Below are positions 23,916 to 56,477 of a DNA stretch of 64,000 bases, one piece after another. Within the stretch, counting starts at the first letter, position 1. Each line of letters opens with the position of its first letter. The stretch covers positions 1,116,001-1,180,000 of the forward strand of contig JAMXDE010000004.1 of NCBI GenBank assembly GCA_026770025.1, written 5' to 3'. Position numbers and translations under genes: made by a program. The DNA is from Craspedostauros australis. Taxonomy: Eukaryota; Bacillariophyta; Bacillariophyceae; Mastogloiales; Achnanthaceae. Below the pieces are notes generated by a model. It made no database searches. It was given only the letters and a program-made list of their open reading frames with translations, and was not told where the DNA came from.

Positions 23916-25054
23916 GGTGAGTGATCGTAGCTCGCACTATGCTATTGTACTATACTGCACTATACTGTACTTGTCTGCGATTGCGATGATGGTCGTTGTC
24001 AAATTTGAATCGTCAATGGCGCCAAATCAGAAGGAGGATCCGGTGGATGCCTGTTTGGGGTCACCTGCGTTGCCGAATCTTCGCTCTCTCCTCTTACATA
24101 CAATACACAGTACTACTAATATGTTGCGGATGTGGCGTCAGGAGACTGGCAGGAATGTGATGGTTCGTGACTATCGGTGCTTGGGAGTGTGCTGGGCACG
24201 AGTATGAGGACGTTGGTACGTATTATAGTAATAGCTGTCAGGATACAGATGCTATCGTCCACCTGTACGACTACATGTACGATCTATTCGGTGTTCGTCT
24301 TGCCAACCGATGCCCCTGACTTTGGTGGTTGTCTTGCTCTTGTCGCGCTCTTGGTTTGTCGTGGCCTCTGTGTTGATCGGTGTGGATGCTGTGGGTGCTG
24401 CTGTGTTGTCCACGCTCCTCACAATCAGCGTGCAATGCGGGTTTGGTGGATGTCTTGGTTCAAATCATTGGACCGCGGACGACGCACAGGCCGTTTGATT
24501 CAACAGACTCAACATGCCGCAACAACGACATTTGGTTCATGTGGTCAAGGTCATCACACATGGTACGACCCAATCGAGCTCGACGCGCTCTTCGTGAAAC
24601 AACGGTTTTCCAAGGTCCACTTAACAACATCCACGTGCCGGCGTGCAACAACGAGCAACGGTCACCTTCCGCCCGTCACATTTTCGGAACGTTGACATCA
24701 GCCACAACAACGACCAATTCCTGTTTCGTGGTGCCATTCTCACGACCACCGCGTCCTTCTTCCTTGCCAGATTGATCGACATCGACATCCTCCTACTCCT
24801 CACAACAAGCAGCAACCACACAAGCAGCAACCACACAAGCAGCAACCACACAAGCAACGAGCATCAAGCATCAAGCACACAATCTTCCCGGTCTGCAACC
24901 GAGAAGACAAAGAAGAACAACAACAACAACATCACACAAGAAACAAGCGTTCTGCACAGCAACCCTTCCGACATTCACACAACACCAGTACGAACATCGT
25001 TTGAAGCTTCCTCCCTCATACGTGGTTTCTTGCACATCACACCGCATCTTCATC
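23916..25054. other. Divergent promoter region, nucleoporin / disordered protein
   Basis: About 1.1 kb between divergent starts. It holds CACGAGTA at 24198 and a 15-bp tandem repeat at 24807, then an A/C-rich leader. Several short frames here show no domain. Confidence 0.5.
24807..24857. repeat. 15-bp tandem repeat in a 5' leader
   Basis: Three exact copies of AAGCAGCAACCACAC plus a partial fourth, about 200 bp upstream of the ATG at 25055. Confidence 0.9.
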
Positions 25055-30197: not shown

Positions 30198-33100
30198 TTA
30201 TTCAGCACTGTCGTCATACGAACCGTCGCCGAGGGTGTCGCTGGAGAAGTCGTCGGCATGAAAGTCCGATTCCATTGTGGGGAAGTCATTGTCGAAGTGA
30301 TGTTGACGGATCGGTTCGTGTTGGCTGGCACCTTCAATCACTGTGGGAACATCCGAGTATCTGGCCCGGCCACTTCCATTTCCTGCTCCCCCATCTTGTC
30401 CTGCTCCGTTCGTCGTTGGGATGTCTGACGTGGATGGCAGATGGAATCGATCCGATGAAGAGTTCCAACTTGACAGCGGTTCCGTGAAGCTGCCAACTCC
30501 ACCGTGATGAATCTGATACCCACCGGTTCCTCCGATGATGGAATTCGTATCCGGCAGCGTCGTGGCGATTGACCCAATGTCATCAATCACACCTTCCGAA
30601 AAGATGCTGCCTCGACGTTGCCGCAACAATCGCGTTGGCATGGATTGCATGTCGTCAACTTCGTGCGCACCCGTGCGGCTGTCACCGCCACCGTCGTTGC
30701 CGTCGCCACTGCCATCATCAGAGCGGCTCGGACGAGTACTGGGACGGACAAAGTGCCCATTCGTTGCCGCTGTTGATGGTGGATGCCCAAACAGCAACAG
30801 CTTCCGCCGTGCCAAGATCGTGTTTTGCACGGGCCGATCCATGATGGAATCCGTCCTGTCTTGAAAGATGTGACGGCACGTAGGGCAGGTGTCGTCCAGA
30901 CCGATGTGACGCAACGCGTGACATTCCTGTATCGCTTCGTCACGTTCGATCTGCACAACCTTCAAGCGATCTTCCATCCTCGACTCCGTCTCATGGACCG
31001 CTTGCATCATCCTGAGCTCGACGCTCTTGTGGTTCAGGATCGCCTCGCGCTGCAGGAAAGTGTTCTCCACCTCCAGATTCTGAACGAGCGCCTGGCTCAG
31101 CGCGAGCTTGCGCTTGAGTTCCAGGATCTCGCTCTCGTCATCCATGGATTTGCGTTTTGAGGTTTCGAACATGGACGTCAACGCGTCTCGACGCTTTTGC
31201 ACGCGGCGCTTTAACTCGCTCGCCCTTCTGCCTTTGGGCGTCGTCAGCATGGAGTTACGATCCATCGACCTGGTCGACAAATCACAAGGTGCGGCAGCAG
31301 CTTCGGTTGAAGTGAAGGAAGTTCTGTCGTGTCCATTTTCGCCACTGTTCCTTCTGGCTACGGGCACGTCGTCCCCGTCGTTATTATTCTGCAGTGGTTC
31401 TTCGTGATCGTGTGATAAAGCCTTGATTTCTGTTGAGCTTCGATGGGAAGACATCATCGAGTGTTCTGCATCACGCAGCACATCAGTTCCGTGTTCCAGA
31501 TCGCCATGTCCAACCTGCACGATGTGACCATTGGATTGCTTTGCGCTTGCGCTTGTGCCTGCGCCATTCATCTTGCCATCATCATGATCATCATTTTCAG
31601 CAGCAGTTGAACCATTGCCAATCACCTTCTGCGAAGCCGATCCATCGATCACGCCATCACCTGATGTCCCTGTGGCGTGCTTGTTGATACTCTCATTCTC
31701 AATCCCCCTGTCACCTGTGTTCGCCTTTCGTGGCGTGGCGCCTTGTGGAGACAGCTGCCGACTGCTCTCGATGCCATTCTCAGAAGCATTTCCACTCTGG
31801 TGTGAGCGTTCGGAATGCGCACTCGTATTACGTTGCGATTGAGGCTTCTCCGGCAAAGGAATGGTTTGATCTCCATTGTTATGAGGGTGCGGCGTGGTTG
31901 TTCCATTTGATTCATGCATGTCGTCGTGCGGATCCACACCTTCATCGACCGGCCCAAGTTTCGCACCAAATCCTCGTGTCGCCATTTCATCAAGAATGGA
32001 TCGCATTCCATTCGTTTGTCTTTCTTTTGCTTGCTTGTACATTGGGGTCGTATCATTTTTGTTCCACGCATCTGACGCTGTCTGGTGGAACGAAGCGCTC
32101 CGATGTTCCGAACCGTCTTCTTCCGTAACCACAGGCAACCCCATGGACGTCAAACGGTTGGAAGTGTCGTCGATGCGAGAGCTGCCCTCGAGATTGGAAT
32201 CGTAGGAATGCAATGAATCCTCCGACAACTGTTGCTTCGCAACGTGACTATCCAGAGAAGGGGGTTTCTTTTTGACGATCATTGTCTCTTGTTTCGCTGG
32301 ACGATGTTGCGAATGGAAGAGTGTGGCAGAAATGTTTGGTTTCGAACCCGCCGAGTTAACATCGGACATTTCGCTCATGATGCTTTCGCCAGGTGAATTC
32401 TCGAGGGACGGATGGATGGCAGTGTGCAAATTGCCGCGGTCTCGACTCGACTGAGCGATGCTTCGGGCCTTGCTCCAATCCATTTTCACCGGTGATAGAA
32501 ACCCCAACTGCTGTATGTGTCCTTGCTCTTGCCCTTGACCATGAGCGCCGTGATTGTTGTCGCTGTTGCTGTTGCTGTCATGAGCATGGTTGTACATGTG
32601 GATGTCTCCTAGGTTTTCATGGTCTCGCATATCATCGTCTTCAACTTCCTCTTCCGACATGACTTCGTAATCAGAGTCCTCGAACTGACCTACATGCGGC
32701 TCATGCCATGGACCCTTGTGGCTAGCGCCGCCGCCTTCGGCTTCGGAGGATGACGACTCTTCTTCGTACGCCGACTCTGTCGTGTCATGCTGCGAGGCGT
32801 ATTCAGTTCGTGATTTGGTGGAACTTGGCATTGCCTTTGGATGAGATTCATTCACATTCGCATGCATGTCATCGCTCTCGCCATGGTGTTCGTCTTCGTT
32901 GTGAGTCACAGAATGCATCACGGTCGATGCTATGCTATCATCTTCTGAATGCAAAGACTTGGTGCCTAGCTTTGCCTTGAGATGGTGGCGTTGTCGATGT
33001 TGATGCTGCTGCTGGCGTTGCGTAACTCCATTGCCATGATTCGTTCTGATATTCGAGCTGTTATGGCCGGCTTCCATCATTGTTTGGTTTGCATCCTTGT

Positions 33101-35849
33101 TGTCATCCTGTGCGCGTTTGTGAAAGGTGTCCAATTCATTCCCAAAATCCAGCCCCGCCGGAGACGGCCGTCGGCTCCTTCGAGACTTGGACAGCGATCC
33201 AGTCGGTGACATCAGGGCTAGGCTAACGGGGCGGCTGCTGGAACTGTGATTCTCTGCAATCGGCGCGATGGGCTTGCTCGTGGATAGCGTGTGCATCTTG
33301 TTGTGGGTGGGAACGCGGCACCATTGGACCGAAGGTGACACCGGTGCGTCCAGGTCGTGCGGTTGAGATAGATTGAAGTTACTCATGTTGCTTTCAGAAG
33401 AATCGAAGGAATGGATCTGAGGAAAGTTGGGCGAAGAATCGTTATTTTCGCCGTCATTGTCGTCGTCATCGTCGTTATTATCATCAGCAAGGCGTGGAAT
33501 GGCTTGTCCTTCTTGTCCAATGCGGAGAGATGTGTTATTCTTGTGGTTGAATGACTTGTGAGGATCGACTGCAACTTTTTTAATCTCCATCCGCACACGA
33601 GAGTGTCCCGTGGTGGACGGGGTGCGTGTATTGGAGGATAATGAATCACCGGATCCGCGTCGTCGAGAATCCATCTGCGGCGTCATAACCGGTGGCGGCG
33701 GTGCGGGATCTGGGATGATCTCGAACGAAGTTGCCGCACTCTGTCTGCCACCAGAGTGGCGCCTGGATCCCACAGAGGCAGCAGCGTCAACACCGCTGGT
33801 GACGCTTGCTGTCGACCCGTTGGCTCTCGAGGCCAGGAGGCTCCGCTTCGATGAATTCGGTCGAAATCTGGTGCTGGGCTGCGATTGCTTGGGCGTGTCC
33901 AAATTCTTTCGAGCCTGCGCTCTGGCCTCGTGGCTTCTGAGACTGCGTTGCTTTGGTGGGGCTGTGTGCGTCGAAAGTCGCTTGGGCCTCGACGAACGAG
34001 CGCTGGATGATTTCGTGATGCCGCGAACGGGGATCGGTTTTGGGTTGTTCTTGCGATCGTTCTGGTGCGGGCTGGTTCTTTGCTTGTGCAATGCGTCTGA
34101 GTGATTCATTCGATATGAACTCGCTGCGTGCTGTTGTGTTTGTCGTCTTGGATGTTGCCGTCGTTGATCGATATCCTGGCTTGCTGATGAGGATGGTGGC
34201 GACGACGATGACGATGTGGATGAATATTCTGCTGACGAGGAGGAGGAAGAAGAGGATGATGAGTGCTGCGATGTCGACGCGCTGTCAATGTCATCGAAAG
34301 CAGGCTGGGTATGGGCGTGGTCGTCATGAAGCGCTTGTGCCGGTCTGTTCGGTGCATGACGCTGTCCATTGGATTCGAACTGAGAAGGAGGATTAGTGGG
34401 AGACGAATATGACGGAATGAACATATCATCGTATCTGTTTCCATGGGAAGGAGACACGGACGGAGCCGACTTTGCTGTAGTCGTCTGTTTCGTTGTCGTA
34501 GGTTTGGCGGATTCGTGCGAGTGGACGTCTCTTCGTTTGCTGCTGGTGGAACCATTGTGCGTGCTCGCACTCCCGTCTCTCGGCGATTGCGCGGGCGGTG
34601 CACTTTCATTTGTATTGTGGGTGGATGTTGTGGTCGGCGTGCCGATGGGCGCAGCGGCGTTTGCTGCATTGGATTGAGATGTTTTGAATACTTGGTTTTG
34701 GGGAGATGGCTGCGGTATCTCGATGTTCGATTGTTGATTGGGACCTGCATACATGTCCTGATCCTCATGCTCGTTCATTCCATCATCCTTGCCATTTGTC
34801 TTCTTCTTGGATGATGACCTTTTGTCTTTCTTCGACTTCTTCTTTGATGTTGATTTTGATTTCCTGCTCGTTGACTTCGCCACACTACTTGGGGGACTCT
34901 GGATGTCCTTGTCCTTGTGACTTTGGTGATGATTGTGATTGTCTTTGTGATGATGAGCGGCCGTATTCCCATGATCATTTCCGGTTTGACTTGGGCCAGC
35001 GCCACCGCCAGCATTAGCGCTAGCATCTTTGTTGTTGTCATCGTCCGTGAGCAGCTTGGGACGCACGTCGTCAAACCGCGCCCAGGCCAAGAGAGACGAT
35101 GCCGATGCGGACGCATGCTGCGGGTGGTTGACAGATGATCCTGGCGAAAACATGGACGCGGATGCCGCCCGCTTCTTCTGAGGACTGACCGAGGTCGTGG
35201 TGCGGGTATCCTTGATCTTGGAGACAGGGACGGCCTTGCCACCATGCTGCACGATATCCACCATCTGCGATTGCTTGATCTTGGACTTTTTCTGAATCTT
35301 CTTCATCTGCTTGGACTTGAGCTCACCTACGTGGCCGGCATTGGGGTCCTTGGCGGAACTGCCCCTCCCGAAGATGGAGCGAATGCCGGAACCGAGGATG
35401 GATGATGAGACAGACGTGACCGACGTTGACTTCGCCGGTGGACCAGAGGGACCCTCATTCGTTGGCGAAGCGAGATGGCCTTCATTGCTACCGCGACGCT
35501 GAGAGGATTTGGGGCGAGACCTGGTTTGTGATTGCGACGCGGCGCCTGGGGAAATCATTCTGGACGGAGAATGCGGAGCGTTGTGGGCCCTGCCTTCGCC
35601 GTTGTTGTTGTCGTTGCTGGTGCGACGTGAAGCTGATCGTCTGCCTCTGCCACTCGCGCTGCCGCTCTCACTTCCACTGTTGTTGCCATTGTTGTTGCCA
35701 TTGTTGTTGCCATTGTTGCTGCCATTGTTGCCGGCATTGTTGCTGCTGCTGCTTCGTTTGCCTCTCATGGACGATCTGCTCGTATCTGCGGACAGCCTCC
35801 TTGAGCCTGACCGAGGTGGGCGCGTCCCGTCATGCTCATCCGCTGCCAT
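30198..35849 (-). CDS. Very large disordered protein with C-terminal coiled coil and CPTC motif
   Basis: 1,883 aa, intronless as modelled; the first ATG of the frame, at 35849, gives MAADEHDGTRPP. About 1,500 residues are low complexity: Ser, Asn, His and Asp rich, with an Asn-Gly repeat near residue 40, a Lys-rich patch (STSKKKSKKDKRSSSKKK) and a long Ser run near residue 540. The only ordered part I can see is a coiled coil at about 1540-1645, beginning ELKRRVQKRRDALTSMFE and containing LVQNLEVENTFLQREA, followed at once by HALRHIGLDDTCPTCRHIF. The Cys pair resembles half of a RING- or rubredoxin-like zinc site, but no second pair follows. No family recognised. Function unknown. Confidence 0.78.
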   Translation of the reverse strand: MAADEHDGTRPPRSGSRRLSADTSRSSMRGKRSSSSNNAGNNGSNNGNNNGNNNGNNSGSESGSASGRGRRSASRRTSNDNNNGEGRAHNAPHSPSRMISPGAASQSQTRSRPKSSQRRGSNEGHLASPTNEGPSGPPAKSTSVTSVSSSILGSGIRSIFGRGSSAKDPNAGHVGELKSKQMKKIQKKSKIKQSQMVDIVQHGGKAVPVSKIKDTRTTTSVSPQKKRAASASMFSPGSSVNHPQHASASASSLLAWARFDDVRPKLLTDDDNNKDASANAGGGAGPSQTGNDHGNTAAHHHKDNHNHHQSHKDKDIQSPPSSVAKSTSRKSKSTSKKKSKKDKRSSSKKKTNGKDDGMNEHEDQDMYAGPNQQSNIEIPQPSPQNQVFKTSQSNAANAAAPIGTPTTTSTHNTNESAPPAQSPRDGSASTHNGSTSSKRRDVHSHESAKPTTTKQTTTAKSAPSVSPSHGNRYDDMFIPSYSSPTNPPSQFESNGQRHAPNRPAQALHDDHAHTQPAFDDIDSASTSQHSSSSSSSSSSAEYSSTSSSSSPPSSSASQDIDQRRQHPRRQTQQHAASSYRMNHSDALHKQRTSPHQNDRKNNPKPIPVRGITKSSSARSSRPKRLSTHTAPPKQRSLRSHEARAQARKNLDTPKQSQPSTRFRPNSSKRSLLASRANGSTASVTSGVDAAASVGSRRHSGGRQSAATSFEIIPDPAPPPPVMTPQMDSRRRGSGDSLSSNTRTPSTTGHSRVRMEIKKVAVDPHKSFNHKNNTSLRIGQEGQAIPRLADDNNDDDDDNDGENNDSSPNFPQIHSFDSSESNMSNFNLSQPHDLDAPVSPSVQWCRVPTHNKMHTLSTSKPIAPIAENHSSSSRPVSLALMSPTGSLSKSRRSRRPSPAGLDFGNELDTFHKRAQDDNKDANQTMMEAGHNSSNIRTNHGNGVTQRQQQHQHRQRHHLKAKLGTKSLHSEDDSIASTVMHSVTHNEDEHHGESDDMHANVNESHPKAMPSSTKSRTEYASQHDTTESAYEEESSSSEAEGGGASHKGPWHEPHVGQFEDSDYEVMSEEEVEDDDMRDHENLGDIHMYNHAHDSNSNSDNNHGAHGQGQEQGHIQQLGFLSPVKMDWSKARSIAQSSRDRGNLHTAIHPSLENSPGESIMSEMSDVNSAGSKPNISATLFHSQHRPAKQETMIVKKKPPSLDSHVAKQQLSEDSLHSYDSNLEGSSRIDDTSNRLTSMGLPVVTEEDGSEHRSASFHQTASDAWNKNDTTPMYKQAKERQTNGMRSILDEMATRGFGAKLGPVDEGVDPHDDMHESNGTTTPHPHNNGDQTIPLPEKPQSQRNTSAHSERSHQSGNASENGIESSRQLSPQGATPRKANTGDRGIENESINKHATGTSGDGVIDGSASQKVIGNGSTAAENDDHDDGKMNGAGTSASAKQSNGHIVQVGHGDLEHGTDVLRDAEHSMMSSHRSSTEIKALSHDHEEPLQNNNDGDDVPVARRNSGENGHDRTSFTSTEAAAAPCDLSTRSMDRNSMLTTPKGRRASELKRRVQKRRDALTSMFETSKRKSMDDESEILELKRKLALSQALVQNLEVENTFLQREAILNHKSVELRMMQAVHETESRMEDRLKVVQIERDEAIQECHALRHIGLDDTCPTCRHIFQDRTDSIMDRPVQNTILARRKLLLFGHPPSTAATNGHFVRPSTRPSRSDDGSGDGNDGGGDSRTGAHEVDDMQSMPTRLLRQRRGSIFSEGVIDDIGSIATTLPDTNSIIGGTGGYQIHHGGVGSFTEPLSSWNSSSDRFHLPSTSDIPTTNGAGQDGGAGNGSGRARYSDVPTVIEGASQHEPIRQHHFDNDFPTMESDFHADDFSSDTLGDGSYDDSAE
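35679..35738 (-). repeat. 12-bp tandem repeat encoding Asn-Asn-Gly units
   Basis: About five units of a 12-bp repeat (TGTTGTTGCCAT on the plus strand) inside the N-terminal coding region of the minus-strand gene. Confidence 0.85.
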
Positions 35850-37359
35850 CCTGCCGTTGGCTTCTGCCGACAATGATGGGGCTTCGCTCCTCTCAGTGCT
35901 TCATGCACAATCAGTATTATTGTGTGTTGCCGTGCGACCGGGATTTTAGCACACATGCACCTCTCTTTGTTGCCACCAACAGCACATGGGCTGAATGCCC
36001 AACTGATGAACTGCCTGACTTGCGGTTTTCGTGTGGAGTATGATCGGATGTTCGATTGGTTGGCTGCTTGGCTGGCTGCAAGAGCAACTGCTTGAAGGCT
36101 TGAATGGTTGGATGCTTGAAGTGTACACGTACGGGTGGGTACTCGTACGACTATGCTGAAGGGTATAGTATGGTAGCTCACACGTCGTCACTGGTGCAGA
36201 CATCGCATGGTTGAAGTGCTCTGCTTCTCTCTCTCCCTGTCTTGCTTCTGAGATTGTGGTGGCAGACCGTCGTCTGGTTGTTGTCTTTGTTCCCCTGTTG
36301 TCTCGTTCGTCAGCGCGCTATTCGTGTCATCGTTGGTGGGTGGTGGCGCTGATTCTCTCTTGATTCGGCACTGATTTACGAGCTGGACTGCTCATTTTAC
36401 TTGTGTCATGCCTTTTCATCTCGTGTCTTGTGTTTCCCGTCGCGACAGAACGTCGGCGCGATTGATATTTTCTGCAGTCTGTATGTTAGTCGTGCATGCG
36501 AATGGTACATCGGGCATTCGAGAATGGTACTGTCATAATACTACCAAGCCGAACGTAGTATCCCAACCGTGTTCAACGACATCACCATCGGAAATCTGCC
36601 ATCTGTCTGAGTACCTTTCATTCGTCGAACATGGGTCATTGCCGTTACGCATAACCGTAAACAGAAACTACTTTGTCGAATTCGTGATTGTATTTTTGTG
36701 GAAACGAAATCAGAGTATCTTTGTGTCGTGTTGTGTCGCCTTGGGGCTTTGTGTGTGCATTCGTGTCCTAGTCGAACACCGTGCGTTCTCGTGTTGTTAC
36801 GCGATTCCGTGTGTTGACATGACTGCGGTCGCAGAGAGAACACGAGCAGACAACAATCGTGATGTTGCAGCGCGAAAAGATGCGGATCTGGTGGACTCGT
36901 GTGGAAGCCGGATGGAGTGCGAAACCACCAACAGAGAGAGAGACATCAAGGGGAGAAAAGGGTAGCCCATGACCAAGGGGAGAGAACACACCGCAATCAG
37001 CAGACAAAGGTCAACAGCAACAGCTACAAGCACAACAACAACAAAAGCTGCGCCGCTAACACAGTGGTACACGCCGCAACAACACGCTTCACACTGCACA
37101 GCCGACGTCTACGACGACAGGTACCAAGAGAAGCAGCACCGAATCACATCACCTCTGCCTCTATCGCGAGTGTCATCAACATCACAGACGAGGATCCATC
37201 AGAGCAGCACCATTGTCAGCACCATTGTCAGCACCATTGCCAGCATCACCAACGACCCCAACAACTCCAACAGCAGCAGCACTGCAGACCAACAGAGAAG
37301 GTGAAGGAAGAGAAAGCCGAAATCGGAACCACCTCCAATCCAAACCATCCACAACAAAC

Positions 37360-40856: not shown

Positions 40857-42279
40857 GTGGGAAGCGTCCTTGGTGATACGGTTGCCTCCGACGAAGTTGC
40901 TGATCCACTCTTGATTTTCTGGCGCCAATCCCCCAAATGCTTCAGATCCAGAACACTACCCCCTTTACTTAGGGGGCATATGCGACATTTCCCCAAATAG
41001 TACCCCAGATATGACAACACACCCCTTTGAACGACTGCCAGACACCATGAACAACAAACTAGACACAATATCTAGAATTCAAGCCTCCCCAAACGCGCTA
41101 TTTTGTGTGCATTCGGAGGGCAAATCAAAGCTTCATTCCAACCTCAACCAGTTCACCCTATCCATACCTACTCGCACTTATGATTGCAGGCGCATAGCAA
41201 CAGCCAAAGGAGATCACGCGTGAAATGCAGACTGCACTGCATGGCAATCGTGACGTCTGGTGTCAACAGATGCGCCATCACCAATCGTGCGAAAGGTTGC
41301 ATGCAGCGGTATCTTGCGAAGGATTCACGATCTTTTCATCCATTCTGCATCTTCCCCATAGCCTACTGTTATGCTATGTATCGTGCATGTCGTACTCGTG
41401 CATGCTATTGTATGCTGTGGCATGCTGCGGGATGCTTGCACTTGTGCTGTGCATCTCAATGTTGGGAACCAATTGTGCACGATCGTTTGGATTGGTAACA
41501 TGAACTCGAGGGGGTGCGATGCATACAGAGGGGCCAGATCGTGTCAAGATGGAAGACTACAGACCAGTGTGGAGTGGCGTCACGTAGACAGCAGGGAGAA
41601 GCAGAACGGAGGGTACTCACACCACAAGTATTCACCTCAGACGGTGCAGATTGGTGCGCGATCGGTGTTAAATCTCCTGGTCCTGCCTATCTGTTCCGTA
41701 GAGTAGTCGTAAGTACACGTACCGGTGCTCTCACTTCTTGACTTCTACCCGAAGAGAAGCGATTTCTGGAGTCTCAACGAACGGCCCTCTGCGGTGAGAA
41801 TTGTGCGGATCGTGTGTCCTCACCATGTGACGACCATCTCGGATTAGAACGCATCCATGCAGTGCGGTTATCGCACGACCAATGCGTGGAGATAGTACCT
41901 CTCGCATGAAGTCGAAACATGACGTGCGACATTCCAGCGACATCAACATAGGCAACTCTGGAATCGTGCCAAATGGGTGACCATGAACATCAAATGATCC
42001 CACATCATGAAGCCACAAGCAACGAGCAGAACGCAGAATGTGGGACGACTCCGAGAAGAGGCACACACATGAGAGGAGAGGGCGCCTCCTCCGCCCCAAA
42101 GAGCTGTTTGATTTGGTTCCGTGTCGGTCTTGTTCAGATTTGTTCACAAAATCACGCTGGCATCACAACCAACATCGACATCGACACAAAAGGAGCACAT
42201 AAACCAGCAACGACAGCAAGCCTCTCCGCTTTGGCAACCTCCATCACGACTGCAATCCACAACCATCAGCAATCACCAG
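40857..42279. other. Divergent promoter region, plastid protein / DUF6174 gene
   Basis: 1.4 kb between divergent genes. TACTCGTG at 41393 and the variant TACTCGCA at 41167 occur here. The last 150 bases are rich in CA and CAA, like other leaders in the window. Only short frames without domains. Confidence 0.5.
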
Positions 42280-44061
42280 ATGAAGGTATCGAAGCTCTTC
42301 CTCCCGCTGCTCTCGGCGTCTTGGGGCGTTGCAACGGCCTCCCGCGTCGCTGCAGACGCTCGCGAACACACCAACCTCCGTTTCCTCGGCGCTGCCGACC
42401 AGACCACCACCACGTGCCTTTCCGATGCTGACTGCAACACATCAACCGAGTACTGCGCGCAGGGTGTCTGCCTGGAGCAAAGCAAGTGCATGACCAGGGC
42501 GGATTGCTTCAACCCATCCAACAGCTACGGAATCATCGAATGTGAAGGACCCATCGATTGCGATGGCGGTCAGTGCACGAGGTACTGCAGACCATACTCG
42601 TGTCTGGATGGCACGGACTTCGTCAATTGCTTCAATGCTCCATGTCAAGGCGACCTATGCGAAGGAGCCGTGAGCTGCGTCGACGAGTACTGCGGTGGGT
42701 GCAACGCGTTGCACTTCGATGCGGCCGGGCACAACATCTGCAAACCAGGTACCTTCGATGACGGCCAATCGAGCGCCGGCCCTGCTGATGGCACCTGCCT
42801 CAGCAACGGCGACTGTCTCGAAACCCAGTACTGCGGCCAAGGCAAGTGCCACGAGAAGGGCGGCTGCTCTTTGGACGTCGATTGCTACAACCCCTCCAAC
42901 GATTACCCATCGGTCGACTGCTTGGGCCCTCCGACCTGCAACGCAGAGGGAAAGTGCGAAGTGGAATGCGGCTCGTCCATGTGCCCCGCAGGCCTCGAAC
43001 GCGTGCAGTGCGATGTGGAGCCATGCAATGCGAGGGTGGCCTGCATCGGAGGCCCCGTCTGCGTCAATGACTACTGCGGAGGCTGCAAGCGAATCTACTT
43101 CGACACGGCTGGATTCCAAACCTGCAAGGATGATGGCATCCACAACTCCAAGACACCTCAGGAGGCGTTGGACGATGCCAAGGCGCTGTGGACATCTTTC
43201 GGACTGACGACGTACGACTATGGCTTTGCCAAGTCATGCTTTTGCACGGAAGAGTTCAGACAGCCGCTTGTCGCTCGCGTCGAAGACGGTGCGCTCAGCA
43301 AGGTCACCACACAATACGGCGAGGATGTGTCAGATGACGTCAAGGCCAGCGTGCTGACTGTCGAAAGTCTGTTCGACCTCATCCAGGCGCAAATCGACGA
43401 CTCTGCTGCTTCCATTAGCGTGAGGTACCACGAACTATACGGATACCCCAAGTACATCTTCGTGGATGAACGAGAAATGGTGGCGGACGATGAAGCAACC
43501 TACGACGTTCGTTTCCTCGTGCCAGTTACCAAGCTCCGCAACGAACACGCTGTGAAGAAGAAGCAGTGGGCTGATACCCAGATCGGAAGGTACACGTACA
43601 GCTTCGTCCAGTCCTGCGAATGCGCTCATGACGGTGTCCCGTACGACGTCACGGTGAGAGATGGCGTGGTCATCAGCGCCACCCCAGATTCGGCCGTGTC
43701 CGTCTCTTCCTCGAAGACGGCAACACTGCAACTGCAGCCATCATACTTCCCAACCCTCGATGATCTGTTTGGCAAGATCGAACAGGCCATGAACGACGGC
43801 TCCGTTTTCCTTGGAGTCACGTACGACGCCGACTATGGATACCCCAAGGGCGTGAGCATCAGCGACAGCGAAGTGATCGCCGATGGTGCTTACAACGTCG
43901 CCGCAACTTTGAAGCAATTCCCCGTTCCAGAAAATGGCAGGGACAAAGACACCTTGGAGGAAGCCAGCGACGAAGATGATCCAAGCGGAGCCGGGGCAGC
44001 TCAATCCAAATGCCTGCTGTTGTTGGCTGCCGTGACATTCTTGGTCTCGCACTTTGTTTGA
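42280..44061 (+). CDS. Secreted Cys-rich protein with two DUF6174-like domains, copy 1
   Basis: 593 aa, intronless. The ATG at 42280 gives a signal peptide, MKVSKLFLPLLSASWGVATA. Two Cys-rich modules of about 110 residues follow (about 45-150 and 170-280), each with a DADC or NGDC start, a CFNPSN/CYNPSN core and an ending of the type EYCGGCNALHFD. Two copies of a domain I match to DUF6174 come next (about 305-425 and 435-555), each starting Y-x-Y/F then a C-x-C pair (CFC or CEC) and containing a GYPK motif after a tVe/tld-LFd/g-I helix. The C-terminus, KCLLLLAAVTFLVSHFV, preceded by small residues, looks like a GPI-anchor signal. Probably a cell-surface or wall protein; role unknown. A paralogue lies 540 bp downstream on the same strand. 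Confidence 0.85.
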   Translation: MKVSKLFLPLLSASWGVATASRVAADAREHTNLRFLGAADQTTTTCLSDADCNTSTEYCAQGVCLEQSKCMTRADCFNPSNSYGIIECEGPIDCDGGQCTRYCRPYSCLDGTDFVNCFNAPCQGDLCEGAVSCVDEYCGGCNALHFDAAGHNICKPGTFDDGQSSAGPADGTCLSNGDCLETQYCGQGKCHEKGGCSLDVDCYNPSNDYPSVDCLGPPTCNAEGKCEVECGSSMCPAGLERVQCDVEPCNARVACIGGPVCVNDYCGGCKRIYFDTAGFQTCKDDGIHNSKTPQEALDDAKALWTSFGLTTYDYGFAKSCFCTEEFRQPLVARVEDGALSKVTTQYGEDVSDDVKASVLTVESLFDLIQAQIDDSAASISVRYHELYGYPKYIFVDEREMVADDEATYDVRFLVPVTKLRNEHAVKKKQWADTQIGRYTYSFVQSCECAHDGVPYDVTVRDGVVISATPDSAVSVSSSKTATLQLQPSYFPTLDDLFGKIEQAMNDGSVFLGVTYDADYGYPKGVSISDSEVIADGAYNVAATLKQFPVPENGRDKDTLEEASDEDDPSGAGAAQSKCLLLLAAVTFLVSHFV

Positions 44062-44601
44062 ACGCGATGTGGTTCATGCTCGTAGCGTGGCGCTCAATTC
44101 ATACATTACCACCTATAATTTCATTTCTCACGAAGAGGTTCTGGATAGCTGACGCTTGTATAGTTCTAGTCTCCATCGATAGGATGGAGGGTTCAGCTCG
44201 TGATTTGTTGGTTTGATCCAATCGTCATCGTTCCCAGACATGGCAACGACATCGCAATTAGGGCCAACCCGTGAATAGATCGTCATTGATTTAAGCGCAT
44301 CGTGTCACAGAGTGAATGATCGGACCATTTGAATGTCGTTTTGGTGACACAGGAGGTTCAAATCACGAGGTGCTGACCAGCAAAGGAGTAACAATTCCGA
44401 TTGCGGACTGGTGAAAACACTGCACAGACACCACACTCGTCGCCTACCGAAAGCCACGCTCTGCGCAGTACAATCCATCAACCTTCGGCCTCTCATTTGG
44501 CGCCAGCATCATCGTTTTTGTCGTTGTTGTGCCATAGCACGTCCTCACGCGGAGAGGTTCATCATTGCAAACAGACAAACAGCACACAAGAATCGCAGCG
44601 A
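44062..44601. other. Spacer between tandem DUF6174 paralogues
   Basis: 540 bp holding the 3' end of copy 1 and the promoter and leader of copy 2. A GGTTCAAATC string at 44355 resembles a tRNA B box but has no matching A box or cloverleaf. Confidence 0.5.
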
Positions 44602-46458
44602 ATGCTGCCGTTCAATGAAAAGATGGTGCAGATTCGAATGCAAAGACACGCTCAGATGATGGCGTTGCTCTTCTCGGCTTCTGCCTTTGCGTTCCTTTTC
44701 GGTGCTGAGGCAGCGGGGGCTTCCGCAACGTCGGCAATGCCACTGCCACTCCCACAGCCATCATCAATGGCACAGACGCGACGATTGGAGGGAGAAGCGT
44801 GCGGCAGCGATCTGGATTGCGTCCAGGGTCAGGAGTACTGCGGCCACGGCAAGTGCATGCCGCACGGTGACTGCGGGAACGACTACGATTGCATCAACCC
44901 CTCCAACGACTACATCACCGGCAGCACCTGCTTCGGACACCGCACCTGCGAGAATGGCAGCTGCTTTTCGAACTGCGGCGAGAAGTGCCCCGAAGGCCAG
45001 AAGGTGATCGACTGCTTCATCGCGCCCTGCGTCTTGCAGTCTTGCGCCACCGCAGTCAACTGCGCCAACATCTACTGCGACAAGTGCCAGGCCGTGCACT
45101 TCAGCGTTGGTGGTTTCGGAGGCTGCGAGAACTTCCCCGACGAAACGACCGTCGATCCAGATCCGGACACCGCGGCATGCTCCAGCGATGCCGACTGTTC
45201 GAACGGAGTGAACGGCGACGGCAAGCCGGCCTACTGCGCTGCCGGCACATGCATGGGACTCTCGCAATGCCAGACCCGGTACGACTGTTTCAACCCATCC
45301 AACGAGTACAGCGTTGATGATTGTACGGGTCCCATTGACTGCGTCGCCGGCCTGTGCATGAGAGAATGCACGGGCAGGGATTGCCCCGACTCGTCCAACT
45401 TCGTCACATGCCGGGAGAGCGCCTGCAACATGCTGCCGTGCCCTTCGAGCCAGCGATGCACCAACTATTACTGCGGTGGATGCGTCGCCCTTCACTTTGA
45501 CGCGCAGGGCGAACGGGTCTGCGAAGCAACATCGCGGCTGTCAGATTCCAGCATCGTCAAGCGGTACCAGGTGGAGAGACGGCAGATGGAGGACGCCAGA
45601 GAGCTGTGGGAATCGCATGACATACACACGTACGACCTCGGCTTTCAGAACCAATGCCGATGCTTTGCGGACTTCGTCGTCCAGCTCACCGCGAGTGTGG
45701 TGGACAACACGGTTGGTGATGTCAAGGTTCGGTCATCCGGAAACGATGCCGCGAAGGACGTGGCGAACGTAGTCAAAACCATCGATGAGCTCTTCCTCAT
45801 CATCGGGTCCGCCATCGATCGCGAAGTTAACGAGCTGTCGATCAAATACCACAGCACGTTCGGGTATCCCACGAAGGTTTACATCGATGAGCAGTACACG
45901 AAGGCGGATGATGAGATGACCTACCTGGTCGACTTTCTCGTCCCTTTCACGGCGATTCAGCAAACTGCGGAAGCGAAGGAGAGTCAGTGGACTGCCAATG
46001 CGTTTGATACGTACACGTACACCTTCCGACGAACGTGCCAGTGCATCGACTCCAACCTCCCCTATGAGGTCATTGTCACGAATGGCGTCGTCACTTCCGT
46101 CAACGGCGAAGAACCGGAATCAGTCTCGGTTTCCGCCGCGTCTACCGATGGCACGCTGCAGAAGATCCCCACGGTAGAGGAGCTCTTCGCCTTGATCGAC
46201 GACGCCGTCGCGCGCAAGGCTTTCAACATTGACGTGAAGTACGACAGCGTGCATGGTCACCCGTACGACATCTTCATTGACTACGACGAGAAGATAGTGG
46301 GCGACGAGATCGATTATTCCGCCAAACTTCAAACGGACATGCAGACGTTACCTCCCACGCAGTCGCCGGCCGAATCGCGGTCTTTCACGCGCACAACTAT
46401 TGTCGCGAATGTTGCAGCCGTGTTGTTCACATTGCTGGGGACAGCGTCGATCCTGTAA
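44602..46458 (+). CDS. Secreted Cys-rich protein with two DUF6174-like domains, copy 2
   Basis: 618 aa, intronless, same layout as the upstream gene. The ATG at 44602 gives MLPFNEKMVQIRMQRHAQMM before the hydrophobic core; the ATG at 44659 (MALLFSASAFAFLFGAEA) would give a more usual signal peptide. Two Cys-rich modules (about 70-175 and 195-305) share CINPSNDY / CFNPSNEY and YCDKCQAVHF / YCGGCVALHFD. Two DUF6174-like domains follow (about 340-460 and 475-590), with QCRC and TCQC pairs and the GYPTKVYIDE / GHPYDIFIDY motif; the second has His in place of Tyr. The C-terminus, TTIVANVAAVLFTLLGTAS, is GPI-signal-like. Clearly a diverged tandem duplicate of the preceding gene. Confidence 0.85.
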   Translation: MLPFNEKMVQIRMQRHAQMMALLFSASAFAFLFGAEAAGASATSAMPLPLPQPSSMAQTRRLEGEACGSDLDCVQGQEYCGHGKCMPHGDCGNDYDCINPSNDYITGSTCFGHRTCENGSCFSNCGEKCPEGQKVIDCFIAPCVLQSCATAVNCANIYCDKCQAVHFSVGGFGGCENFPDETTVDPDPDTAACSSDADCSNGVNGDGKPAYCAAGTCMGLSQCQTRYDCFNPSNEYSVDDCTGPIDCVAGLCMRECTGRDCPDSSNFVTCRESACNMLPCPSSQRCTNYYCGGCVALHFDAQGERVCEATSRLSDSSIVKRYQVERRQMEDARELWESHDIHTYDLGFQNQCRCFADFVVQLTASVVDNTVGDVKVRSSGNDAAKDVANVVKTIDELFLIIGSAIDREVNELSIKYHSTFGYPTKVYIDEQYTKADDEMTYLVDFLVPFTAIQQTAEAKESQWTANAFDTYTYTFRRTCQCIDSNLPYEVIVTNGVVTSVNGEEPESVSVSAASTDGTLQKIPTVEELFALIDDAVARKAFNIDVKYDSVHGHPYDIFIDYDEKIVGDEIDYSAKLQTDMQTLPPTQSPAESRSFTRTTIVANVAAVLFTLLGTASIL

Positions 46459-50789: not shown

Positions 50790-53492
50790 TTTGATGATAC
50801 CCACCTTCTCGAGGAGCTTGGCATTGGTGGTGGTGCTGCTGCTGCTGACGATGATATTGATATTGCTTCCACGACCATTCAAGGTGAGTTAACCAATTCC
50901 ATGGACCTGATTGAACCGCATGTTCTATCCTTGCCTTATCTTGTCCGATGTGATGCATACGTGCATGACATACATGCACACACGAGCCGGACCTGCGAGC
51001 GTACACTGCATTCACAGTGTGTGCGCATTTCAGCAGCGTCCTCCGCACCTCGCGCCGACCACCTGGCATCTACCGGGTGGATATCTGACGTATATGCGAC
51101 TGCAAAAGGCTCCAGATTACAAGAGGGGAGTTGAGGGGCTTGCTCGGGTTCGTCCTGACGTTTCTCCTCCTCCTCAGAGCTACATTCCCACTCCTTGGCG
51201 AGCGCTCTGGCGCTATTACGTGTTGGGAGATAACCGTAGCACGCACATTCTTTCATCACTCCACAATGTGGATGGTGGTGGAACAGCAGCGACATCAGCA
51301 CATATGATGGTTATCAGCCCTGTGCTTCAGAGCATCCAAACATGAATGACTCACAGAGCTTGTATCTCTCTCTCTCCGTTCTGTTGTGCTCTAACCACTT
51401 TTGTTCAGCTGATTTCTCAACACAACGAATGCACATTAACCGCGATTGCATACAGACTGGGATAGACCAGTCCGATCTGCTCCACAAGTACTCTGCCGTC
51501 GAGTGGTGTCATGGGATCAATCGATTGTTGGGTAAATAGTCACCACAAGCTACCAGAATGAAAGTCTCTACTTCATGTCACGTTTGACACATACATGCGC
51601 ATGCGGTGTGCGTTTCATGATAGTCCATGTTATTCAACAGAGTGAGGTACCTCTTGATCTGTACTCGCATCTTTGATACTGCACATGGACGAATCCATGA
51701 TGCTATCCTCTTTCTCTCTCTCTAGATTTGAGTTCGTAGCCGGTTCTTGATGTCATGATCAAACCGACCACAATCATTCCACTCTCACAAAGCTATCATT
51801 TATGTGTGAAATGAATATTTTACACGAACTCCGTTGCGTCTCCGACATCTCCGACGTCTCCGTTTCACGCATGAGAACGCACTTCATGACTGCGACGAAC
51901 AATCTGGTCGAAATCTTGTATCTGGTGGATTGTGCAGCCAACAACACGGGACGTTCTCTCCTTCCTTGTGTCCCCACTGTTCTTGTTCCTTGTTCCTTGT
52001 TCCTTGTTGTTCCCTCGTGATGTCGTGATGTCGTGATGTCGTGATGTCGTTGTGTTCGGTGGGTCTCATCGTTTCTCTTCGTCCTTCTCTACATGGGATC
52101 TTGCCGCCCTTCCGCGCTCTTGGGTGCAGAAGTGTGGAGTGTGGAGACCAAATTTGTCTTCGAGAACCGAGACAGAGCAAGAGTGGAGTATCACCTCTTG
52201 TTAACGTCCATTGGTCATGAATCGGTCAGCTCACTGCATGCAACTGTGCTGAAACTTCATGTGATGCCGATCCCCACGCACAACTGGTTCGTGTGCCATG
52301 CAATTCCATGCAGGAATGGCCAAGTCCCATAACCATGCGATACTGCTTGGAATGTCACGATCACCAAGAGATAAAACTCACGTTCCGCAACATGGTGACG
52401 TGATACAATCCATTGTATCGTTTCGGCTGCGACATCTGCCCTGTTCTCTCTGTGGCGACTGTCGACTTCAATTTCGCCAATTGTGGCCACGAAACAACCG
52501 CTCGGAAGTTGGCACACGCCCGCGCAAACACAGAGAGAGAGAGGGAACCAAGGCTCTTTGAGCGCCCGAACGCCACCAAGTAACCGGCAAAGCGCATCGC
52601 AACAGGCCAATTCCGTGCAACCACAAGAAAGGAACACTTCTTTGACACTTGAAAATGTTGACACCCACAACACCAACGACATCAACCAGAACGGTTGACG
52701 CTGTCTTCCTCTTCCTGTGGGAATGGAACACGCAGACCGACGCCTGAATTCCCAAACACGCGGAGTCACAACCACGAAGGAATGATCAGCTTTAAAGATT
52801 CGCTGCGTGGTTGCAGTGTTGATGTTGCGTGTTTCAAGAGGGCATGAGAACACTGTCTGCCTTGCGGTGATGTTACCGCAACCACGATACCAACATCAAC
52901 AAACATCGCGCTGACAAACATCAAGCAACTCACCCAAAGATCTCATAATTTCGACATCGACCTCGACTGCGAAGCAACAGTTCCGTGTCACATCAAATCA
53001 GAATAGTCCGGCAATACGAAGACTTTACTCTGCGGGTGAGTATGGTGACAACGCACAGCTTGGATACGATTGCTCGCTTTGCTGTCAGGCAGTACTCCTG
53101 CTTGCGCTTCGTCTTGCAACCAAGGGCAATGGCCAACACTTTGCTGGCGGCAACGACGGTGGCGATGCTGACAATGGTGACAATGTGACAATGGCGGGTT
53201 ACGGTGGCTCCTGAATCTCGGTCGTTGCTTTGTGTCTTCGTTGAGAGTTCCACGCGCAGCAACGAAGGCCTCGATCTCTTCCAAACTAAGTACCTCAAGG
53301 CATCCACTCGTATTGCGATGAAGCCACTCACCGATCCCTTCTCATGCCATTGTCGTGCCATCCTCATCGATCCATGCCTGCCTATTGTGCACTCCTGCCA
53401 ACAATTGCCGCCCAACACAGACTCAATACATACCCATCAAGGCAACAGCAACAGCAGCAACAAGCCCATAGGCAACCAAGTGATCGTCCAAG
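50790..53492. other. Long intergenic region
   Basis: 2.7 kb, the longest gene-free stretch. The first 95 bases continue the preceding frame in coding-like style. A frame at 51036-51345 (GYLTYMRLQKAPDYKRG) is not tied to any gene. TACTCGCA at 51662, TTCCTTG repeats near 51985 and a TCGTGATG array at 52015 occur. A strong GTGAGTATGG donor at 53036 and CCCAACACAG at 53411-53420 could bound a 5' UTR intron of the next gene. Confidence 0.45.
52015..52052. repeat. TCGTGATG octamer tandem repeat
   Basis: Four copies of TCGTGATG and a degenerate fifth, directly after a short TTCCTTG tandem array (about 51985-52007). Confidence 0.85.
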
Positions 53493-56477
53493 ATGACCAC
53501 TTATCCAGATCCCGAAACGGGCGGCGTGGAAGCCGACCTCGAAGTCGAAGGACCGCAGGTCACGACCACCGGAGGCAACACCCGGGGCGAATCCTCAGAC
53601 TCCAAAAATGTGACGGTCCTCAACGATCTCTCCGCGTACAAGGGAGCTTCGCTGGAGGAGCAGGTCGCTTCGATCATCGAAGACCACGACGTCGTCATGT
53701 TCTCCAAAACTCACTGCCCCTTCTGTCGCGATGCCAAGGATCTCCTGGCGGTGCAGCTGGGCGTGCCTGTTCACGTTGTCGAGATCAATGAACACCCTGA
53801 TGGGGCATTGATCTTCGAGCATCTGCGCGAGCAGACCGAGCACAAAACGGTCCCCATGATCTACATCAAGGGCAACTTCATCGGCGGGTGCGACGATCTC
53901 AAGGGACTCCATGCCAAGGGAACATTGGAGCAGACCCTCCTCAAGGGAGTCGAACACACGCGCCCCCGCTTCGAAGGCACCGACCAGCTGGAGACGGCCC
54001 GTCTCTTGCCACCTCCGCGAAGCCGCGCATGCCACCCGCTCTTCTTCTTCCCCAACGTCGTCAACAACTACGCGGTTCGCGTCATCGGCTTCCAAACCTT
54101 CGTCCTGTCCATCCTTTCCGCGGCCTTTTGGAACAAGAAGTGGGGACGATACACTGCGGCATTCGTGCTCGCGGACTTCTGTCTTCGATTCGTCGCGGGA
54201 GCGTCCGCATCCGCCTGCGGCATGATCGCCAATGTCGCCACATCCAAGTTCAAGCCACAGTTCCGTCCCGGCCCACCCAAGCAGTTCGCCTCCTTCTGCG
54301 GCATCATGTTCTCTGGCTTCGGAACCCTTTTCTACTTCGTGGACTTTGACGGGCATGAATACCTGGGCATGGTCTTCATGATCGGCCTGGCCGGTGCCTC
54401 GTTCCTCGAATGGGCATTCGACTTCTGCCTCGGCTGCGAGTTCTTCGCCATCGGCATCTATCTTGGCCTCATCCCCGACCACGTGTACCGCATCTACACC
54501 TCCACACGTCAGGAGGTGGAGGAATCGTGGGAGTACAAATTCACTGATAGCAACGCCCCGGAACCGGTCAAGGTCAACACCGACCCCAGCTCCGCCATCG
54601 CTCTCAAGTACAAGAAGAAGAGCGACGAATGGACCAAGGATGACTTCCACCTCATCCGGAACATGCAGGTCTCCTACTTCTCCATGCCGCTTGCCATCAA
54701 CGGACTTGCCGTTGCATTCAAGATGGCCTCGTCTTGGTCCACGTCGCGCTTCTCTCCTCTCGTTTTGGGACTCGGAACGCGCAGCATCATCGTCGATGAC
54801 AGCTGGCACCACGTGATCTCGTTCTTTGGTGCCATGATCTTCCTCGCCTTCCTCGCGCTCTACGCCGCCCGCGCCGTGTTCTATTTCCACAAGGTCCAGC
54901 TCGAATGGGACAGCCCATTGGCATCACCCTCCTTCGGCATGATCACCATCACGATCATGCTCCTCGCCTTCTTGCTCTACGACGAGGTTGAATTCAACAA
55001 CAACTACCCAAGCCTCGACGAAGAGCCCGCGCAGAAGGCTGCCAGAGTCTTCTTCTGGATGGGGTCCATCCTTCACGTCATCCTGACGGTTACCAAGTTC
55101 GGCGAATGGATCGGCCGCCGCATGGAGATGGAGCACGTTCACGCTCACTGGCTGATCCTCCCAGTCGGCCTCAGCGTCGCCGCGCTCGTCGCTCCCGTCA
55201 TCCCATTCTTTGCTGCCGACAACAGCGACATCGTGGGACTCGTATTCGTCGGCACGTTCTTCCAGTCATTCGCCCAGCTAATGTGGCTGGTCCTGTTCAC
55301 GATCACATTCTTCAAGACCGTCACCACGCACAACTCCGACAACCGCGTGCGCCACGGCATCTGGGTTTGGCTGGCAGCCCCATGCGTCGTGGGACTTGCG
55401 GACTTCCCCATCTGCATCGCGGGCGCCGGCTTCAGCAACGACGAGTGCGCCATCCGATTCTCGAGCTACTACTTCGCCGGCATCTTCATCTTCTTTGGCA
55501 TCGTCGTTTCGTCGCTGCCACACCTTGCCTTCATGGGCAACGATTCATGGGGCATGCACTACTGGATCGGTTGCTTCTCGCTGGACGTGCTGGCGGCATG
55601 TGGTGCGGCGTTTTACTCGTTGACGGGATTCCGCTCCGCAGAGACCCTGTCCTTCATGTTCCTGGTCATCGCGAGCTTCGCCACGTTCGTCAACTTCCTC
55701 CACACCATGTTCGGCATGCTGAACCGCCGCACCGTCTTCACTCCGGAAGTCAAGTGGGGACCACTGTCCTTCATGAAGCTGACCCACGAAGCATTCCGGG
55801 GCAACATGGAGACGATGAGGATCTCGTTGGAGGTTCTCGATGTCAACACGGACAGCGCCGAGATGCGCGACAACCTCTCGCTGTTCGCCGTCCATCTCAA
55901 CCGCTTCTCCATCCTGCACGACGAGCACTCCAAGCACGAGGACGAAGTCATCTTCAAGATGTTCAACGACTGGTTCCCGGAGCACGCCAAGAAGTACAAC
56001 AACGACCATGATGGATACCACCGCGTCTTCGAGGAGGTGAACCAGGCCGCCAATCAGCTTCTGGACAGCTCGCTGAGCCTTGGCGTGCGCCAAGACGCCC
56101 TCGACGTCCTCAAGCGCATCCTGCCACCGTTCTTCGATGACTTCGAGGAGCATCTCCGCGGCGAGGAGGACAACCTCGTGTGCATCGGACGCAAGCACAT
56201 TCCGCTGGAGCTGCAGAAGCAGATGTCGCGCAAGGTCTTCGAGATCACAGAGGCCGAACGGTGGAACATCATCATCCCGTTCGTGCTGCAGAACCTGACC
56301 CGCCACCCACAGCGCGTCCGGTACCTCAAGGTGTTGATGTGGGCCCTGCCCGAGCGCGCCCAGCAGATCGGAATGATCGTCTACCGCAACGTCGACGCCG
56401 TCATGTGGGAACGCCTTCGCGTCCAGGTCCCAGAGATGATCCCTCGCGGAGCGCACAACTGGATGCGTTACTATTAG
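53493..56477 (+). CDS. Glutaredoxin / DUF4395 / SLAC1-TDT transporter / hemerythrin fusion protein
   Basis: 994 aa in one exon, start MTTYPDPETG. Four units can be read. (1) A soluble glutaredoxin, about residues 45-150, with the dithiol active site C75-PFC and the glutathione-site text TVPMIYIKGNFIGGCDDL. (2) A membrane segment, about 185-330, starting VNNYAVRVIGFQTFVLSI and ending FDFCLGCEFFAIGIYLGLIP; the CLGC pair is typical of DUF4395. (3) About ten membrane helices, about 385-710, starting VSYFSMPLAINGLA, matching the SLAC1/TehA (TDT) family of anion channels and dicarboxylate or sulfite exporters. (4) A C-terminal hemerythrin-like bundle, about 765-900, with HDEHSKHEDEVIF, then HDGYHRVFEE and FEEHLRGEEDNL (two H-x3-E motifs). 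The tail, from LTRHPQRVRYLKVLMWALPE to IPRGAHNWMRYY, is of unknown role. A redox- or O2-regulated anion transporter is the natural inference. No stop or frameshift separates the parts. Confidence 0.88.
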   Translation: MTTYPDPETGGVEADLEVEGPQVTTTGGNTRGESSDSKNVTVLNDLSAYKGASLEEQVASIIEDHDVVMFSKTHCPFCRDAKDLLAVQLGVPVHVVEINEHPDGALIFEHLREQTEHKTVPMIYIKGNFIGGCDDLKGLHAKGTLEQTLLKGVEHTRPRFEGTDQLETARLLPPPRSRACHPLFFFPNVVNNYAVRVIGFQTFVLSILSAAFWNKKWGRYTAAFVLADFCLRFVAGASASACGMIANVATSKFKPQFRPGPPKQFASFCGIMFSGFGTLFYFVDFDGHEYLGMVFMIGLAGASFLEWAFDFCLGCEFFAIGIYLGLIPDHVYRIYTSTRQEVEESWEYKFTDSNAPEPVKVNTDPSSAIALKYKKKSDEWTKDDFHLIRNMQVSYFSMPLAINGLAVAFKMASSWSTSRFSPLVLGLGTRSIIVDDSWHHVISFFGAMIFLAFLALYAARAVFYFHKVQLEWDSPLASPSFGMITITIMLLAFLLYDEVEFNNNYPSLDEEPAQKAARVFFWMGSILHVILTVTKFGEWIGRRMEMEHVHAHWLILPVGLSVAALVAPVIPFFAADNSDIVGLVFVGTFFQSFAQLMWLVLFTITFFKTVTTHNSDNRVRHGIWVWLAAPCVVGLADFPICIAGAGFSNDECAIRFSSYYFAGIFIFFGIVVSSLPHLAFMGNDSWGMHYWIGCFSLDVLAACGAAFYSLTGFRSAETLSFMFLVIASFATFVNFLHTMFGMLNRRTVFTPEVKWGPLSFMKLTHEAFRGNMETMRISLEVLDVNTDSAEMRDNLSLFAVHLNRFSILHDEHSKHEDEVIFKMFNDWFPEHAKKYNNDHDGYHRVFEEVNQAANQLLDSSLSLGVRQDALDVLKRILPPFFDDFEEHLRGEEDNLVCIGRKHIPLELQKQMSRKVFEITEAERWNIIIPFVLQNLTRHPQRVRYLKVLMWALPERAQQIGMIVYRNVDAVMWERLRVQVPEMIPRGAHNWMRYY

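Follow-up and report, generated by a model that had tools for sequence, protein, structure and literature searches.

The 64,000-nucleotide stretch of Craspedostauros australis DNA that was analyzed, hereafter the window, contains an open reading frame that joins a glutaredoxin domain, a DUF4395 membrane domain, a SLAC1/TDT-type channel domain and a hemerythrin domain, in this order, and ends in a conserved helical segment. An in-frame TGA at 53481-53483, four codons upstream of the ATG at 53493, precedes the coding frame, and the stop-to-stop frame comprises 997 codons. An earlier note on this DNA had described a single uninterrupted frame with four parts. The 994-residue ATG frame confirms this description, and all four parts were found, with the addition of a fifth conserved segment behind the hemerythrin that the earlier note had missed. 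A whole-protein search of the genome (74.8 million bases on 90 contigs) returned one full-length place for the fusion, and the remaining matches were to its glutaredoxin part. The coordinates of the features are collected in Table 1.

Several other frames were observed in the window. Two consecutive plus-strand frames at 5582-12545 jointly encode the domains of a eukaryotic acetyl-CoA carboxylase; they probably belong to a single gene that is interrupted by an intron between 7978 and 8199. Two adjacent plus-strand frames (42121-44061 and 44401-46458; 646 and 685 aa) form a tandem pair with two DUF6174 stretches each, and two long open frames at 25001-29512 (plus strand, 1503 aa) and 30198-35873 (minus strand, 1891 aa) had no Pfam match at E≤1e-4.

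Table 1. Features of the four-part fusion (positions in the window; residues of the 994-residue product) and of the second DUF4395 fusion (positions in loci L009 and L010).
Feature	Position	Strand	Basis
Whole coding frame, 994 aa + stop, Grx-DUF4395-SLAC1/TDT-HHE fusion	53493..56477	+	ATG frame, Pfam, alignment, genome search
N-terminal tail, residues 1-50	53493..53642	+	Poorly conserved, mostly low model confidence; residues 1-36 pLDDT <50
Glutaredoxin domain, residues 51-155; cis-Pro 121, GGC 131-133	53643..53957	+	
Glutaredoxin active site CPFC, residues 75-78	53715..53726	+	Residue conservation in family
DUF4395 membrane domain, residues 185-325	54045..54467	+	Pfam and model, pLDDT 91.2
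CLGC pair, residues 312-315, directly behind the fourth long helix	54426..54437	+	Conservation
Linker, residues 326-384	54468..54644	+	Model, pairwise identity
SLAC1/TDT domain, residues 385-750, ten long predicted helices	54645..55742	+	
Phe695, ninth SLAC1 helix, presumed TehA/SLAC1 gate position	55575..55577	+	hhalign, conservation
Hemerythrin HHE domain, residues 755-896	55755..56180	+	Pfam, ligand pattern, four model helices
C-terminal conserved helical segment, residues 897-994	56181..56474	+	Pairwise identity 58.3%, model helices
Nucleoredoxin-type DUF4395 copies	L009 1450-2763; L010 799-1983	-; +	

The four domain names given in the earlier note are supported by Pfam, the hemerythrin by way of its family. 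The Glutaredoxin profile (PF00462) matched residues 67-130 (E 1.3e-13; 51.3 bits against a cut-off of 22.9), and the CPFC motif, the cis-proline P121 and the glutathione-site residues G131 and G132 are in place. A glutaredoxin domain is present in the fusion, yet it is not filed as the eukaryotic equivalog GRX_euk of NCBIfam (TIGR02180), for which it scored 79.8 bits against 87.25. DUF4395 (PF14340) matched residues 190-319 (E 8.8e-18; 65.3 bits against 24.5). The single-chain structure model of the fusion was confident, and the four long helices that it predicts in the DUF4395 part were taken as membrane helices. With these four and the ten helices of the SLAC1 part crossing the membrane, the glutaredoxin, the CLGC pair, the hemerythrin and the tail would all be cytosolic.

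The claim of a TDT/SLAC1-type transporter was borne out by the SLAC1 profile (PF03595), which matched residues 390-738 (E 6.2e-24; 85.2 bits against 27.9), and by an invariant phenylalanine. Phe695 was aligned by hhalign (probability 98, E 1.3e-13) to the last phenylalanine of the FWSFSF motif of E. coli TehA, is present in 38/38 members of the family described below, and falls within the ninth SLAC1 helix of the predicted model, in which this part of the chain has the SLAC1/TehA fold. By its place, the matched TehA residue would be the published gate. The pore phenylalanine of the family sits in the ninth helix according to two papers (PMC3509319, PMC6765260), one of which gives F329 as the conserved pore phenylalanine of Mae1 (PMC6765260). 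The tellurite-resistance/dicarboxylate transporter subfamily of NCBIfam (tdt, TIGR00816) gave 57.9 bits against 237.25 (E 1.1e-15); the channel part is related to this subfamily but is not filed there. The only other SLAC1 match in the genome, on contig C11 at 118063-119280 of the plus strand, is part of a 1441-codon open frame that has no DUF4395 match.

Di-iron hemerythrins carry the ligand pattern H-HxxxE-H-HxxxE, and the earlier note had placed a di-iron hemerythrin bundle at the C-terminus. In the C. australis protein itself, the Hemerythrin profile (PF01814) matched residues 759-896 with E 7.6e-4 and 20.4 bits, below the cut-off of 25.3, so that of the two folds for which the earlier note had asked for a profile match, the channel exceeded its threshold and the hemerythrin did not. 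Across the family, the pattern stands: 34 of the 38 members matched the profile at E≤1e-3 (best 6.3e-10), the precomputed annotation of 24/38 includes PF01814, and the six ligands (H765, H812, E816, H839, H887, E891) are complete in 37/38, the protein P0079 lacking one. The domain is therefore hemerythrin-like when this protein is taken alone, and hemerythrin by family. Four long helices are predicted for it; among the best 50 structure matches to the whole-protein model there was no solved hemerythrin fold. The fusion shares with HHE hemerythrins the six-ligand pattern and, in the model, the four-helix bundle, and differs from them in its weak profile score, in being joined to a membrane channel and in the 98-residue conserved segment that follows. 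This segment matched no family in the Pfam scan of the fusion and is its most conserved part, with a mean pairwise identity of 58.3%, followed by the DUF4395 part with 48.7%. It is helical in the model, and its majority consensus ends in NWRRYY or a similar sequence.

The homology search returned 79 proteins, from which an alignment of 38, including the C. australis protein, was made with a criterion of at least 94% query coverage, plus the protein of Capsaspora owczarzaki (83%); the other 41, with lower coverage, were left out. At E≤1e-3, SLAC1 and DUF4395 each matched all 38 members and glutaredoxin matched 37. All four parts align in 37/38, and their order is constant. Among the named sources are the diatoms Stauroneis, Epithemia, Seminavis, Fistulifera, Helicotheca and Amphiprora, a pelagophyte without further classification, a red alga (Porphyridium purpureum), a green alga (Chlamydomonas sp. 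UWO 241) and Capsaspora. The earlier note had pointed to stramenopiles and haptophytes as groups in which to look for the same order; the stramenopile part held, with members well beyond it, and no haptophyte was found among those of the 79 homologues that carry an organism name. The contigs that encode the proteins of Porphyridium, UWO 241, Epithemia and Capsaspora are 0.4 to 5.7 Mb long, which argues against contamination. A transcriptome protein of Stauroneis constricta has 77% identity to the fusion over 100% of its length and a colinear start, which shows that the fusion is neither a chance product nor two genes and contradicts the possibility, raised earlier, of a frame split in two. The relationship to Stauroneis would also place the source of the window among the pennate diatoms. 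The pairwise distances of the parts correlate across the 38 members (r 0.69 to 0.92); this indicates common inheritance as one unit and nothing more. The Capsaspora protein has no glutaredoxin and keeps the CLGC pair, the channel and the hemerythrin ligands, so that the core shared by all 38 is DUF4395-SLAC1-hemerythrin. In summary, the fusion is real and is conserved across very different algae and protists.

Residue conservation bears on the chemistry of the glutaredoxin. The N-terminal cysteine, Cys75, is kept in 37/37 members that have the domain, along with the cis-proline and the GGC, and the resolving Cys78 is kept in 34/37, being replaced in three (CPFS twice, CPFT once). Since loss of the resolving cysteine leaves the N-terminal one and the residues of the glutathione site in place, glutathione-type monothiol chemistry would fit these sequences better than a strict dithiol mechanism. 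The dithiol glutaredoxin of the earlier note is thus correct for the motif, the cis-proline and the GG(C), and has to be amended in that the resolving cysteine is optional. The domain shares CPFC, cis-proline, GGC and fold with class I glutaredoxins such as yeast Grx1, human Grx2 and plant GrxC/S12, at an identity of at most 38%; it differs from them in its optional resolving cysteine, its score below the NCBIfam eukaryotic cut-off and its tethering to the membrane via DUF4395.

The CLGC pair noted earlier was found again in the family, where both CxGC cysteines are invariant (38/38). The same holds in DUF4395 alignments that combine bacterial and eukaryotic members; one of the surveyed bacterial frames, L175, has no recognizable CxGC. 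The same genome encodes a second fusion, of 394 residues, in which a nucleoredoxin-type thioredoxin domain (Thioredoxin_8, YCPHC) is joined to a C-terminal DUF4395. It occurs on the contig of the window as two nearly identical copies in inverted orientation, separated by about 74 kb. This type is common in diatoms, with 147 proteins at E≤1e-3; among the matches listed (the best 120 of the 147), most are annotated with both a thioredoxin-type domain and DUF4395. Adjoining each copy on the opposite strand is an apparent tetrapyrrole methylase exon (PF00590; L009 1-717, plus strand; L010 2712-3431, minus strand), with a match of E 1.5e-9 in L009 and the L010 counterpart assigned by its like sequence. 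It is perhaps from a uroporphyrinogen-III methyltransferase of siroheme synthesis, and its adjacency to the DUF4395 fusion may be due to chance.

In bacteria, DUF4395 was found in 63/198 genomes of a phylum sample and in 48/149 of an overlapping set. Of 60 loci surveyed, 50 distinct ones remained after removal of two without a usable frame and eight repeats; they are a non-random set of best-scoring rows and 18 chosen places, nearly all from the one phylum sample. A thioredoxin match within 1.5 kb only was found at 21 loci, a second CxxC in the DUF4395 tail only at 12, both at two and neither at 15. The opposition of tail and thioredoxin (Fisher p 0.01) follows clades and so does not represent 50 independent observations. 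On closer inspection of the 15 loci with neither, a more distant CxxC was seen in six (one of them L175) and a thioredoxin neighbor in two; all eight thioredoxin neighbors checked with Pfam, including these two late finds, scored over the thioredoxin cut-off. The tail CxxC was present at 80/80 loci of the Tsukamurella/Gordonia/Arthrobacter type, where no thioredoxin match was found within 1.5 kb of any (0/80) or anywhere in the 965 kb examined. Three plasmid loci from three phyla had the tail in one case and an annotated thioredoxin within 6 kb in none. The tail pair starts 20 residues past the CxGC in 11 of the 12 sequences read, the diatom nucleoredoxin-type fusion included, and is absent from the four-part proteins of the 38-member alignment, which have the glutaredoxin (37/38). 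The simple reading of this pattern is that the membrane dithiol of DUF4395 acts together with another thiol centre, a soluble one, which is supplied in one of several ways.

Four of the 50 loci (L132 to L135) have the gene order thioredoxin-DUF4395-rhodanese-DUF1416, checked with Pfam on one of them, and are likely a sulfur-handling cluster with a membrane CxGC protein; this order is a weak pointer to sulfur. The rhodanese there is of the two-domain type, and an LmeA-like gene precedes the cluster in L132.

The reading that we prefer, at roughly even odds (a probability of about 0.5), is that the protein is an anion channel or carrier of the SLAC1 type whose regulators, a CLGC thiol switch and a di-iron input, are built into one chain. 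The protein is probably a channel under the control of the redox state of the cell. The glutaredoxin would draw on glutathione and then reduce or glutathionylate the CLGC pair, with glutathionylation and its removal taking place on Cys312/Cys315. The pair would act as a thiol switch at the membrane face and shift the pore, with its presumed gate Phe695, between conducting and closed. The di-iron hemerythrin would provide the second input, for oxygen, NO, peroxide or iron. The cargo would be a small anion, for which sulfite or another sulfur anion related to it is the first guess; nitrate, chloride and malate are other candidates.

The alignment of all four parts in 37/38 members, their correlated distances, the invariant CxGC cysteines and Phe695, the near-complete set of hemerythrin ligands and the confident single-chain model count in favor of this built-in regulation. 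So does the switching of plant SLAC1 channels via their cytosolic N-terminus (PMC3509319). The proposal in the earlier note that the glutaredoxin serves the CLGC pair has gained support, as DUF4395 accompanies thiol partners elsewhere, both at bacterial loci and in the nucleoredoxin-type fusion of the same genome. Those pairs and that fusion likewise combine a thioredoxin-fold protein with a CxGC DUF4395, but they have no SLAC1 and no hemerythrin, and their thioredoxin-fold subfamily differs from glutaredoxin. Several observations count against the preferred reading: the Capsaspora protein without glutaredoxin; the bacterial DUF4395 that is closest by its N-terminus (an FPNPVNE-like start), which is of the tail type and has no thioredoxin neighbor (0/80 loci); the clade-bound contrast of tail and thioredoxin, drawn from one phylum sample, together with the three plasmid loci; and the scores of the C. 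australis protein below the Pfam hemerythrin and, by far, the NCBIfam tdt cut-offs.

The glutaredoxin may instead act on the cargo. At the membrane it would handle sulfur bound to glutathione, as persulfide or S-sulfonate, and the TDT part would export sulfite or a similar product, so that the protein would be a metabolic export machine resembling a self-contained Ssu1. Ssu1 is a sulfite-exporting member of the TDT family, and to our knowledge neither it nor the malate carrier Mae1 has fused domains. This yeast sulfite pump is a predicted ten-helix channel that also exports selenite (PMC10269739). The guess of a sulfur cargo, a thin one, rests on this sulfite export and on the four bacterial loci with the rhodanese-DUF1416 order. 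The fusion resembles Ssu1 and Mae1 at the level of the family and shares their ten-helix plan, a likeness drawn from their descriptions. The SLAC1/TDT fold, the export of sulfite and selenite, the bacterial gene order and the dispensable resolving cysteine (3/37) all suit this cargo-handling role, but sulfur enzymes occur at only 4/50 loci, the fusion contains none, and the hemerythrin is left unexplained; we regard it as unlikely. Another reading, improbable to a like degree, takes the protein chiefly for a sensor of oxygen, NO or iron. The channel would then be under the control of the hemerythrin, and the glutaredoxin would serve only to deliver or repair iron or a cluster, or would be a passive leftover. 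The ligands that are complete in 37/38 and kept where the glutaredoxin was lost, and the high conservation of the segment behind the hemerythrin, speak for such a sensor, but the invariance of the CxGC cysteines matches that of the ligands, and the N-terminal cysteine of the glutaredoxin is kept throughout. An artefact of annotation or assembly, with two or more adjacent genes read as one, has the weak hemerythrin score of the C. australis sequence as its sole point and is extremely improbable, given that the same chain is found at full length in 38 members, from both transcriptomes and genomes and from several groups.

Each of the domains is already known, and what appears to be new is the combination of the four. 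A literature search of titles and the first parts of abstracts, outside which most subscription papers lay, returned no description of it, and DUF4395 appeared in two papers of the literature searched, in both within lists of proteins or domains. We know of no SLAC1/SLAH or TehA member (PF03595) with fused redox or iron domains; compared with the slow anion channels of plants and with bacterial TehA, the fusion carries such domains at both ends. Plant SLAC1/SLAH channels are opened by separate kinases.

A wider interpretation, which is possible although doubtful, is that DUF4395 is an unrecognized membrane thiol-switch module whose partner may be a CxxC tail in cis, a neighboring thioredoxin, or a fused nucleoredoxin-type or glutaredoxin domain. 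The fusion would then be a one-chain sensor-actuator in which glutathione redox, acting via DUF4395, and O2, NO or iron, acting at the di-iron centre, jointly gate an anion channel. DUF4395 would gain its first functional hypothesis, in which its membrane dithiol partners thioredoxin-fold proteins. The opening of plant SLAC1 channels depends on separate partners. If the preferred reading is true, this conserved SLAC1 relative would be a direct, testable system for the thiol gating of an anion pore, in algae with a major share in ocean production.
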